From Methanoregula sp. (GTDB taxonomy: Archaea > Halobacteriota > Methanomicrobia > Methanomicrobiales > Methanospirillaceae): a DNA stretch of 64,000 bases. How positions within the stretch are numbered: position 1 is the first letter of the stretch; each line of letters begins with the position of its first letter. This document shows positions 34,455 to 37,161 of this stretch, in pieces. The stretch lies in NCBI GenBank assembly GCA_026625165.1, contig CP112999.1, forward strand, positions 1,550,001 to 1,614,000, given 5' to 3'. The position numbers and the translations under genes were made by a program. A model generated the notes under the pieces. The model worked only from the letters and a program-made list of their open reading frames with translations. It was not told where the DNA came from and ran no database searches.

Positions 34455-34957
34455 TCATCGCAGGTCCGGCACGGTGTCTGCCCACTCCTCCACCCGCCTG
34501 CGGATCGCGTTGTCGGCATAGGACGCAACCGTAATCCGGTCGCGGGCCAGGCTCACGAAATAGAATCCGTGTGCAGCGTCGTGGCACTTCAGGTAACAGA
34601 AAAGAGGTCAGCCTCCCGGACGTGGGAGACCTTCCAGCGGTGGGCGGCGATGTTGGCCATGTTGGTGATCATGGATGCGCTGCCGGTCTCGTACCCTTCA
34701 ACCGAGTCGTACACTTCCGAGCTGGTGCCCACCTGCTTCCCGTTCCCGTCATGGTAAACGAACTTTGCCGTGTACCGCTCCCGCACCGGCATCATCGGCG
34801 GGAAGACCCGCTTTCTGGCATGGTATGCGGTGCACCCGAGCGGGTTTTTGACAATGAGCATCCGGACTACCAAGGAAAACTTCCCGATGTCCGGGAAAGG
34901 GTTTTTCAGCGTTCGCACGGCACTGCTGGTTCCGGGTCTCTTGCGGAAATGGGTCAT
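34455..34957 (-). pseudogene. Frameshifted paralogue of the 36658 gene
   Basis: The reading frame opens with ATG at 34957 behind GGAG (MTHFRKRPGTSSAV) and stops at 34589. After a one-base shift at about 34593 it continues LKCHDAAHGFYFVSLARDR to a TGA at 34455. The whole is 503 bases, exactly one less than the intact paralogue at 36658-37161 (504). Paralogue reads gtc-atc-ctg-aag; this copy reads gtt-ac-ctg-aag, so a single base is missing. Function unknown. Confidence 0.8.
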
Positions 34958-35089
34958 GGCAACTCCTGCTCCCAGGCGTCCTGCAGGGAAAGGAGAATCA
35001 TGTGGTCTGCAGGAGGTCTTCTGATTTTCTTTGTACTGGAATGAGCAAGAGCGCTAAATTCTTGGTGGTCGGTTGCGTGGGGTGACTGG

Positions 35090-35105
35090 GGGTCGCATGG
35101 GTACA
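35090..35105 (+). repeat. 16-bp repeat, copy 1
   Basis: GGGTCGCATGGGTACA, identical to the core of the 21-bp inverted repeats at 35239 and 35337 and in the same orientation as the copy at 35340. It lies in gene-free DNA. Confidence 0.8.
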
Positions 35106-35238
35106 AAGCGTGTTGGCGGCGCATGGTCCCGGTTCTGCTGGCTTATGCCGATAATTCCCTTTTCTTTGTCGTGATCAATGGGTCCGGACGGATGGTTACC
35201 AAGCCTTGCAACTCCAATGCCCGGGCGCTTTAAAGACA

Positions 35239-35259
35239 TGTGTACCCATGCGACCCACA
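35239..35259 (-). repeat. 21-bp inverted repeat, left arm
   Basis: The sequence (core TGTACCCATGCGACCC) is the exact reverse complement of 35337-35357. The arms are separated by 77 bases of A+T-richer DNA with no gene. It may be an operator, a phage or element end, or a recombination relic. Confidence 0.8.
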
Positions 35260-35336
35260 CAGACCCTTCCGGTTTTTATGTAAAAATGAAGGAATTTTAC
35301 TTCGGAAATTCACGTGCAGTCAGAAATTTTTAATGA

Positions 35337-35357
35337 TGTGGGTCGCATGGGTACACA
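35337..35357 (+). repeat. 21-bp inverted repeat, right arm
   Basis: Right arm (core GGGTCGCATGGGTACA), exact reverse complement of 35239-35259. It lies about 60 bases upstream of the tandem palindromes at 35416 and 265 bases before the antitoxin gene. Confidence 0.8.
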
Positions 35358-35415
35358 CTGAATGGAGGAGTATTTTGCGGGCCGTGTGATGCCTGATGTG
35401 AGGCAGTTAGTAACG

Positions 35416-35451
35416 TTACAGATATTCTGTAATATTACAGGAAATCTGTAA
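35416..35451. promoter_or_regulatory. Two tandem 17-bp palindromes, likely operator
   Basis: TTACAGATATTCTGTAA (35416-35432) and TTACAGGAAATCTGTAA (35435-35451) are near-identical dyads two bases apart, centre to centre 19 bases. Such spacing suits cooperative binding of a dimeric regulator. They lie about 170 bases upstream of the antitoxin start. The bound protein is unknown. Confidence 0.6.
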
Positions 35452-35621
35452 GGTTAAGGACAGTTATTTTGCGCGTGAAAATATTTTTGGCGGGAAAATT
35501 TTTGGATTTTGAAGATATTAAGCGGGAAAACCCGGAAAGAAGGGAATAGTGTAGTGTGAATCTGCGTGTCATACGACATGTTGTAATGGTTTTAAGTATT
35601 TACAACGTTTACAGCATGATC

Positions 35622-35822
35622 ATGTCAGCGGTGAAGCGGTTGCCGGTTTCCGAGAAAGTCTGGAAAGAGCTCGGAGCGATGAAGGGCGCCGGCCAGACCT
35701 ATGACGATCTCATCGAGGATATGATCGAACGGGTCAAGAAAGCCCGGCTTGAGGAAGACGTGAAGATTTGGGAGAACTGCCCGGATTCGGAGTATGTGTC
35801 CCTTAAGGAGATCAAGGATTGA
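35622..35822 (+). CDS. Putative antitoxin of the RelE-type pair
   Basis: The ATG at 35622 (MSAVKRLPVSEKVWKEL) starts the conserved part, 66 residues; ATG at 35616 is possible. There is no ribosome binding site, but TTTAAGTA at about 35592 could be a TATA box for a leaderless mRNA. The N-terminus resembles small antitoxins (SEKVWKELGAMKGAGQTYDDLIEDMIERV), with an acidic C-terminus. Its stop overlaps the toxin start (TTGA), so they are coupled. The family is short and weakly conserved. Confidence 0.75.
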   Translation: MSAVKRLPVSEKVWKELGAMKGAGQTYDDLIEDMIERVKKARLEEDVKIWENCPDSEYVSLKEIKD

Positions 35823-36109
35823 CCTTCGAGGTGAAGGTCCGGAATACAGCCGATGCGTTCATCGCTACTGTGCCTGAAAAATCCCGCCGTATCATTAAAA
35901 ACGCCCTTGAAGGTCTTGAGACAGCCCCGTTTCCCGGCAGCGGCGGTAATAAGGAAATAATTATTTTACGGGGCGGCAGGGAAATACACAGGCTTCACAT
36001 TGCCCGGACCTATACCGCATTTTACAGCGTTGACAAAGAGACGCGGGTCGTCAGGGTCCATGAGATTCTCACGATTGAGCAGGCACACAAGAGGTACGGG
36101 CGGTTGTAG
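35819..36109 (+). CDS. RelE/ParE-family toxin
   Basis: A 96-residue basic protein starting at TTG 35819 (MTFEVKVRNTADAF), overlapping the antitoxin stop by four bases. It shows the family pattern: helices near IATVPEKSRRIIKNALEGL, then GGREIHRLHIARTYTAFYSV, with an Arg in RLHIAR and a basic tail. RelE toxins cut mRNA in the ribosome; ParE acts on gyrase. The exact target cannot be told here. Start with TTG suggests low translation relative to the antitoxin. Confidence 0.82.
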   Translation: MTFEVKVRNTADAFIATVPEKSRRIIKNALEGLETAPFPGSGGNKEIIILRGGREIHRLHIARTYTAFYSVDKETRVVRVHEILTIEQAHKRYGRL

Positions 36110-36657
36110 GCAATCACTTTTTCGTGCTGTCCGCAATGGCATAAGTCCGCGTGAGGGTGGGGAGGGTTTCTCAACAATAACCAGAACAGAGAATGTATTC
36201 ATCCCTCCTGACATGGTATAGCGGATGATCGTGATTTTGATCTCCCTGACCAGGAACCGGTGTTTCCCGAAAGATTCGGGCAACCCCATCCCCGGTTCTT
36301 AAAAAATCTTCAGGGGAGGTTACCCAAAATATGTGCCTGACCCCCCCTAACCATCAGATTGTATCCGCAATTACTTTTCAGTCGTAAAATCGCATAAAAA
36401 CCGGGCCTGAAAACAGAAATGGCCGGAGGGGGTCGCACCACTTTTTTTGGTGGAGGGAGGGGGCCCCCACCCCCCGCATCCAACCGTCCGCACGATCACG
36501 ACCTGCACCATTTCCACGCCGTGAATATGGAGAAAAATGGAGAAGACGGGTTGTCCGGAACGGTACGCGAAAGGAGGTTGCAACCATAGCCGCATGACCC
36601 CCTCCGACCCCCCCTGCCCGGTGCAAGCAGTCCTGATACACAATAACGAGGACCCCC
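36110..36657. other. Gene-free stretch with G/C-rich tract
   Basis: No convincing ORF on either strand. A run of G-tracts (GGTGGAGGGAGG) leads into the perfect dyad GGGGGCCCCC at 36459-36468. A T7 run flanked by CACC and GGTG lies just before it. The right end carries the ribosome binding site (AACGAGGA) of the next gene. Confidence 0.5.
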
Positions 36658-37161
36658 ATGGCACAATTCAAACAGAAGAATACGGCGAAGAGTGCAGTTC
36701 ACGCCCTTCGCCACCCCATTCCTGATATCGTTGCATTCAACACAGTCGTCAGGTCATTGATCCTCAAAAACCCGTTCGGGTGCACATCCTACATGAGCGC
36801 GAAGAAGAACCATCCCCCGCTCGAAACGGTACGGGAGATGTATACCGCGAAATTTGTGTACGAGAATACGAAAGGGAAGCAGATCGGATACGGGCTGGAT
36901 ATGTACAACTCCATCGACGGCTACCAGAACGGTATTGCCGCCGTGATCTCGAACATGGCAAACATTGCAGCGCATGGCGGGAAGGTACATCATGTCCCTG
37001 CTGCCGATCTCTTCTCGGTCATCCTGAAGTGCAACGACCCGAAGGCCGGGCTGTACTTCCTGAGTATCGCCCGCGATCGGGTGACACTCTCCTCATACAA
37101 TGATGAGGGGATCCGCTCCCGGGTAGAAAAGTGGGCGGACGGGGTGCCGGGGCTGAAGTAA
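36658..37161 (+). CDS. Unknown 167-residue protein, intact paralogue of 34455
   Basis: ATG at 36658 (MAQFKQKNTAKSAVH) after AACGAGGA. I do not recognise a family. Conserved between this protein and the frameshifted copy are KNPFGCTSY, a MYTAKFVYEN-like strand, SNMANIAAH and ADLFSVILKC, plus RSRVEKWADGVP at the end. There is no signal peptide or membrane helix. Two hairpins follow the stop codon. The pair flanks the toxin-antitoxin module. Confidence 0.7.
   Translation: MAQFKQKNTAKSAVHALRHPIPDIVAFNTVVRSLILKNPFGCTSYMSAKKNHPPLETVREMYTAKFVYENTKGKQIGYGLDMYNSIDGYQNGIAAVISNMANIAAHGGKVHHVPAADLFSVILKCNDPKAGLYFLSIARDRVTLSSYNDEGIRSRVEKWADGVPGLK

Follow-up and report, generated by a model that had tools for sequence, protein, structure and literature searches.

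Three-site DNA arrays beside genes for small basic proteins in methane-producing archaea: apparent protein-DNA addressing systems

Results

Two arrays and their genes in the window

The window (the whole stretch of DNA analysed, 64,000 nucleotides, from Methanoregula sp.) contains two arrays of short boxes, each next to a gene for a member of the same 167-residue protein family. In array 1, a 21-bp inverted repeat with 100% complementary arms separated by 77 nt provides box B (35239-35259, minus strand) as its left arm and box C (35337-35357, plus strand) as its right arm. Box A (GGGGGTCGCATGGGTACA, 35088-35105, plus strand), assigned from sequence and geometry, lies further left; this third copy (35087-35105) matches 35337-35355 with 95% identity over 19 nt, and the exact 16-mer at 35090-35105 is common to it and to both arms. 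The start distances are 151 bp from A to B and 99 bp from B to C, making this an array of the 151/99 type. Between B and C there is a mid-spacer motif at 35292-35307 (GAATTTTACTTCGGAA, a degenerate form of TTTTACGnCGTAA), which was recognised by position and consensus and given no strand. The array is intergenic: on one side a leftward gene starts at 34957, and on the other toxin-antitoxin-like genes run rightward from about 35556. The space between the leftward gene and box A holds a promoter-like block on the minus strand (35052-35070; TTGGTGGTC plus the bases to its left, read on the plus strand), which includes TTGGTGGT at 35062-35069. The leftward gene itself (gene 1, 34589-34957, minus strand) belongs to the 167-residue family and is frameshifted: its open reading frame of 122 residues ends at an in-frame stop, and the homology continues in another frame. 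Relatives have intact copies, and the frameshift may be real or a sequencing error.

These results agree with an earlier note on the same DNA, which had picked out a perfect 21-bp inverted repeat and a further copy of its 16-base core in gene-free DNA. The same note had judged a chance origin unlikely and had proposed a genome search with the 16-mer. That search, of the 2,174,862 bp single contig, found four exact copies, these being the three in array 1 and one at C1:1214435-1214450; within the window, allowing up to three mismatches, there are three matches, all exact, where 0.66 would be expected. Chance is ruled out as the source of the copies by these counts. With only four copies in the genome, the 16-mer is therefore not a frequent word scattered without pattern, which is what the note had said would speak against it.

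Array 2, whose boxes and motif were assigned by sequence, is arranged the other way round. It has box C at 36325-36347 (minus strand; core GGGGGGGTCAGGCAC at 36333-36347), a mid-spacer motif at 36379-36391 (minus strand; GATTTTACGACTG), box B at 36428-36450 (plus strand; GGGGGTCGCACCACTTTTTTTGG) and box A at 36585-36602 (minus strand; core GGGGGTCATGCGGC at 36589-36602). It stands upstream of gene 2 (36658-37161, plus strand), an intact basic paralog of 167 residues and the candidate cognate DNA-binding protein. The first 19 bases of its box B occur exactly at three places in the genome, including the window, and at a fourth place the sole difference falls at the position left free in the pattern. 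In array 2 and in other arrays of the same genus, the GGGGTC half alone is common to boxes A, B and C.

The two arrays are separated by a toxin-antitoxin pair (35556-36109, plus strand), in which weak Pfam matches point to an antitoxin like VapB and a toxin like ParE/RelE. On its 5' side are a near-palindrome of 25 nt (TAACGTTACAGATATTCTGTAATAT) and a direct repeat of 19 nt in three copies (..GGCGGGAAAA), at 35411-35456 and 35463-35530, which may be an operator or promoter. At another locus, L065, a neighbouring gene is similar to the VapB-like antitoxin.

Occurrence in genomes

When one genome from each of 84,980 species was scanned, the exact 16-mer turned up in 72 stretches. Methanoregula or Methanomicrobiales account for 31, which are the ones analysed here and include every one of the ten stretches that match twice; the other 41 have a single match each. 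The 17-base box of array 1 (family F1) is present in 13 of 199 genomes of the order, namely the genome studied here and 12 of genus g3, and is absent from the other three genomes of its own genus; the strict B-C pair is present in 10 of 199. No relative was found in the viral contigs, plasmids and phages searched, and a virus or plasmid origin was discarded on these grounds. Apart from the home array (that beside its gene), the genome studied here has one further exact F1 box, within a mixed array. Provided that the gene-1 frameshift is real, it and the scarcity of F1 boxes look like decay. The same genome also has a dispersed array near C1:419692 (L248), with B box GGGGGTCGCACCACTTTTT and A and C boxes GGGGTCAyGyrGGTACA, and no 167-residue gene within the 3 kb examined.

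Controls with reversed patterns gave no match in any genome for the F1 box, the strict B-C pair and families F2, F4 and F6 (described below). They gave one match for F3 (in G159) and two each in G059 and G137 for F5; in the genome studied here they gave one for the 16-mer at up to two mismatches and two for the array-2 box at up to three.

Architecture of the arrays

Across Methanoregulaceae, the arrays have a single canonical order, A(+), B(-), C(+), with box consensus GGGGGTCGCRTGGGTACA. Such triples of alternating orientation make up 29 of the 35 clusters found at 33 loci, these being the 31 stretches above plus two loci of the genome studied here. In F1 arrays, B to C is about 101 bp, and A to B is about 105, 140 or 151 bp. 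Pooling 71 triples from four box families (19 of which were taken by hand from the F2 and F3 loci and include orthologs from genomes G137 and G081) gives A-B distances of 101-105 (n=33), 139-141 (n=10), 148-152 (n=24) and 162-163 bp (n=2), two further values of 32 and 47 being probably spurious, and B-C distances of 98-103 (n=57), 77-79 (n=2) and 122-126 bp (n=11). In this pooled set the discrete classes fit a lattice of steps of about 11.5 bp.

The spacers are dissimilar, apart from a motif resembling TTTTACGnCGTAA halfway from B to C. The score of this motif is 9.94 out of 12 where shuffled B-C spacers give 8.01, and it is central in 90% of cases compared to 21%. Short (105) arrays have a similar motif between A and B by eye, for which the motif model gives little excess. 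The motif has a single orientation in the arrays aligned, and no recombinase was recognised, so that an invertible promoter was rejected. In eight orthologous arrays of G137 and G081, identity is 96.3% in the boxes, 86.5% in the spacers and 79.4% in the flanks, the figure for the boxes being inflated, since boxes served to find the loci.

The 167-residue protein family

In genomes with boxes, a gene that encodes a 167-residue protein and reads away from box A has one array upstream. The family to which it belongs is present in 165 of the 199 genomes of the order, often as many paralogs, with 10 in the genome studied here. In a tree of 68 members (one 9-residue fragment was left out, and array labels were set by eye) the rows with arrays fall together in a single 32-row clade (SH-aLRT support 100), the other 36 rows having no arrays; the single row of the clade labelled array-free has just 119 nt of upstream sequence. 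A uniform count, based on detection of similar box pairs, finds such a pair upstream of 24 of 32 members of the array clade and of none of the 36 others, and still of 13 of 21 when the 11 rows of the F1 clade are removed. The promoter-like block is distributed in the same way (25/32 against 0/36).

The two groups also differ in charge. Net charge is +2 to +14 in the array clade (n=31) and -12 to -4 in the others (n=36), so that there is no overlap, the former being all basic and the latter all acidic. A basic array clade next to an acidic sister is what might be expected had one branch gained DNA binding. The hypervariable columns of the array-clade proteins are 3, 46, 49, 57, 154 and 158. The acidic sister clade (36 rows) is of equal length, without arrays, and widespread in Methanomicrobiales.

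An apparent exact correspondence between the top-scoring proteins and the genomes with boxes was set aside as partly circular, because the alignment used (A1) was built from those loci; moreover, G089 and G129 have the F1 box, and the proteins adjacent to it fall outside the F1 clade.

Structural and family searches gave weak matches. Foldseek found no match to the 167-residue protein at E<=1e-3. The best VIA structure comparison has a Z of 6.7, in the noise range; a TBP-like fold (a DNA-binding saddle) has Z of 5.0-5.9 and rmsd of about 2.9 over about 80 residues, also in the noise range, and was not used. A Pfam scan of 14 members gave no transposase family at E<=1, and gave DUF1508 for seven of them at E<=1 (best E 2.2e-5); the similarity to yegP (2k8e) has E 0.024. 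The likeness to YegP/UPF0339 (DUF1508) proteins is thus weak, and differs from membership in that the window copies are under the Pfam gathering cut-off of 22 bits, gene 1 scoring 13.7 bits and gene 2 having no match. The literature titles and opening lines of abstracts that were searched mention no DNA-binding role for DUF1508.

Orthogonal box families

The paralogs differ in their upstream boxes, the GGGGTC half being constant and the second half variable. Besides F1, boxes of five further families were identified: F2 (GGGGTCTGTGGTGAAA) upstream of paralogs in G137 and G081, F3 (GGGGTCAGTGAGGGACA) in G157, F4 (GGGGTCGGAGGTGGAAA) in G089, F5 (GGGGTCGGGCnGGGGCA) in G059 and G093, and F6 (GGGGTCGGGCGGTGTAC) in G195. 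All six families searched are dispersed, mainly in genomes that have the matching gene beside a home array. There are 23 F2 boxes in G137 and 20 in G081, with 0-2 in five other genomes; 14 F3 boxes in G157 and none in six others; and 17 F4 boxes in G089, with 0-1 in ten others. F5 boxes occur in three of nine genomes, each of which has a gene of the family beside a box, and F6 boxes were seen in G059, G179 and G089, genomes in which no clear F6 home gene was found. At the F2 and F3 loci, which were examined in full, the geometry and the mid motif equal those of F1. The mid motif is therefore shared, and what is specific to the paralog is the second half of the box.

Two hybrid arrays were seen, one with F1 boxes and an F4-like box (L136, G089, about 534 kb) and one with F2 boxes and an F4-like box (L258, G081, about 1434 kb).

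Context and fate of the dispersed arrays

The dispersed arrays are intergenic. Relative to a uniform distribution they cluster near the home gene for F2 in G137 (KS p 0.003), F4 in G089 (KS p 0.0004) and F5 in G059 (p 0.03), though not for F1 in G089 (KS p 0.26), and the clustering is weak when the comparison is made with the arrays of the genome's other families (combined p 0.05). Arrays overall favour the half of the chromosome proximal to Orc1/Cdc6 (pooled KS p 1.5e-4); there are better anchors than Orc1/Cdc6, and clustering at the origin was rejected for this reason.

The gene context bears on whether the paralogs might be transcription regulators that act on operator arrays, one at the regulator's own promoter and others dispersed as a regulon to control the genes next to them. 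Phased operators with several sites are normal for regulators, and home arrays lie just upstream of the promoter-like block, which is a putative promoter, in the array clade and not in the other rows. Some dispersed arrays also lie upstream of genes, for example gap. However, the block is found at 10 of 12 home arrays and at none of 40 dispersed ones, so that the dispersed sites are not at promoters as those of a regulon would be; 16 of 55 arrays (both neighbours called, home arrays included) lie between convergent genes, compared to 23 of 144 gaps longer than 200 bp at the same loci; and a strict F1 array is present at just 4 of 30 gap-gene loci. We consider this explanation unlikely, while ranking it next after the bridging role discussed below.

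The gap loci also bear on the loss of arrays. Where the array is missing, the intergenic region is often shorter, although several are long too, and in G059 a decayed A box is kept beside a deletion, showing that arrays can be lost. A second alternative, which fits less well and which we regard as improbable, is a selfish system like REPIN/REPtron, in which the boxes are moved by the cognate protein. It would account for a cognate gene beside a repeat, for dispersed intergenic copies, for several orthogonal families per genome and for presence or absence between species, and there are boxes inside a multi-copy element in G137 and G081. Against it, the Pfam scan recognised no transposase, the dispersed arrays of one genome have no common spacers, G137 and G081 have most of the array positions examined in common, and the gap locus is a deletion with a decayed A box remaining. 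The multi-copy element is a MITE-like repeat of 345 bp with its own ends (TGCTCTGGAGAAA and TTTCTCCAGAGCA), found at L119-L122, L125-L131 and L134, and it mixes families, carrying F1 boxes B and C with an F6-like third box.

An RNA element acting like an attenuator, for which A-B and B-C pairings could indeed form exclusive hairpins, is very improbable, given that A and B combine freely at their variable R base (A/G in 12, G/A in 5, combinations that would mismatch in RNA being as common as those that would pair) and RNA pairing is therefore not kept, that no Rfam family matches at E<=1 except mir-351, far under its cut-off, and that the spacings follow a DNA-like lattice.

Discussion

The earlier note had offered three readings of the repeat. 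Protein-binding sites fit best, because the boxes are kept at fixed spacing in otherwise unrelated spacers, lie upstream of one basic clade, and have a second half linked to the paralog. Ends of an element are not supported for array 1, as the spacers are not common to the copies; boxes do ride on the separate MITE-like element in two relatives. Sites for a mobile system are a less likely reading, with no transposase recognised and with loss at the single presence/absence locus examined.

We therefore come to the following proposal, which is built on sequence comparison and which we consider probable: that the repeat serves the adjoining basic 167-residue protein as a DNA-binding array of three sites, with a separate box for each paralog, autoregulation at the home array, and dispersed copies bound in trans that bridge loci. 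The array geometry, the association of boxes with proteins, the orthogonality of the box families and the split in charge are observed, and from these the binding itself, looping, autoregulation and bridging are inferred. Each array-clade paralog would recognise its own 16-18-bp box by the constant GGGGTC half and the paralog-specific half, and this recognition is the part in which we have high confidence. The protein would be bound to A, B and C jointly on phased DNA, which may be bent or looped about a second, shared factor at the TTTTACGnCGTAA motif midway. The home array, just upstream of the promoter-like block of the gene, would most likely set the protein's own level. The dispersed arrays would be bound in trans and might join distant loci, in the manner of a DNA-bridging or domain-organising protein; that bridging is their main role is the reading preferred here, put forward tentatively and on balance doubtful.

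Some parallels are worth adding. Autoregulated transcription factors with looped multi-site operators exist, and the three like sites upstream of the promoter-like block, at helical-like spacing, resemble these; the dispersed arrays differ, having no such block and not avoiding places where genes converge. MatP-matS and ParB-parS are chromosome-organising proteins with dispersed sites. The likeness is one of systems, consisting of a chromosomal gene, a dispersed short site and an uneven spread along the chromosome; as for sites in one region, F2, F4 and F5 are clustered relative to uniform and weakly relative to other families, and F1 is not. Unlike them, the arrays have three oriented sites with fixed, phased spacing, and one order contains numerous paralogs whose site families differ, the protein having no recognised relation. 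REPIN-RAYT (PMC3116915, PMC3733652) has a repeat beside a cognate gene, dispersed inverted doublets and several specificities. The arrays are likewise scattered between genes, with one next to its cognate gene, and have several specificities. RAYTs are HUH/tyrosine transposases, however, and the 167-residue protein matches no transposase family; the boxes are not palindromes and form triples at fixed spacing with unrelated spacers. Boxes are also carried by the MITE-like unit in G137 and G081. In logic, REPIN-RAYT, along with MatP-matS and ParB-parS, appears to be the closest known system.

The three-site arrays of methane-producing archaea are a newly recognised family; with a small basic protein gene matched to each box family, and most families scattered through their genomes, they look like a set of distinct systems for protein-DNA addressing. 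No description of these arrays was found in literature titles and the beginnings of abstracts, subscription papers being mostly outside that coverage. A bolder and rather unlikely version is that they constitute a new class of archaeal chromosome-address systems, in which a basic clade has split into many orthogonal protein-box pairs, several per genome, each gathering its own scattered arrays into a higher-order structure in the part of the chromosome near its gene. If the proposal is true, an uncharacterised protein family would gain a DNA-binding role, about a dozen natural variants of protein and site specificity on one scaffold would provide material for a recognition code, and the organisation of the chromosome in mesophilic methanogens would become directly testable.
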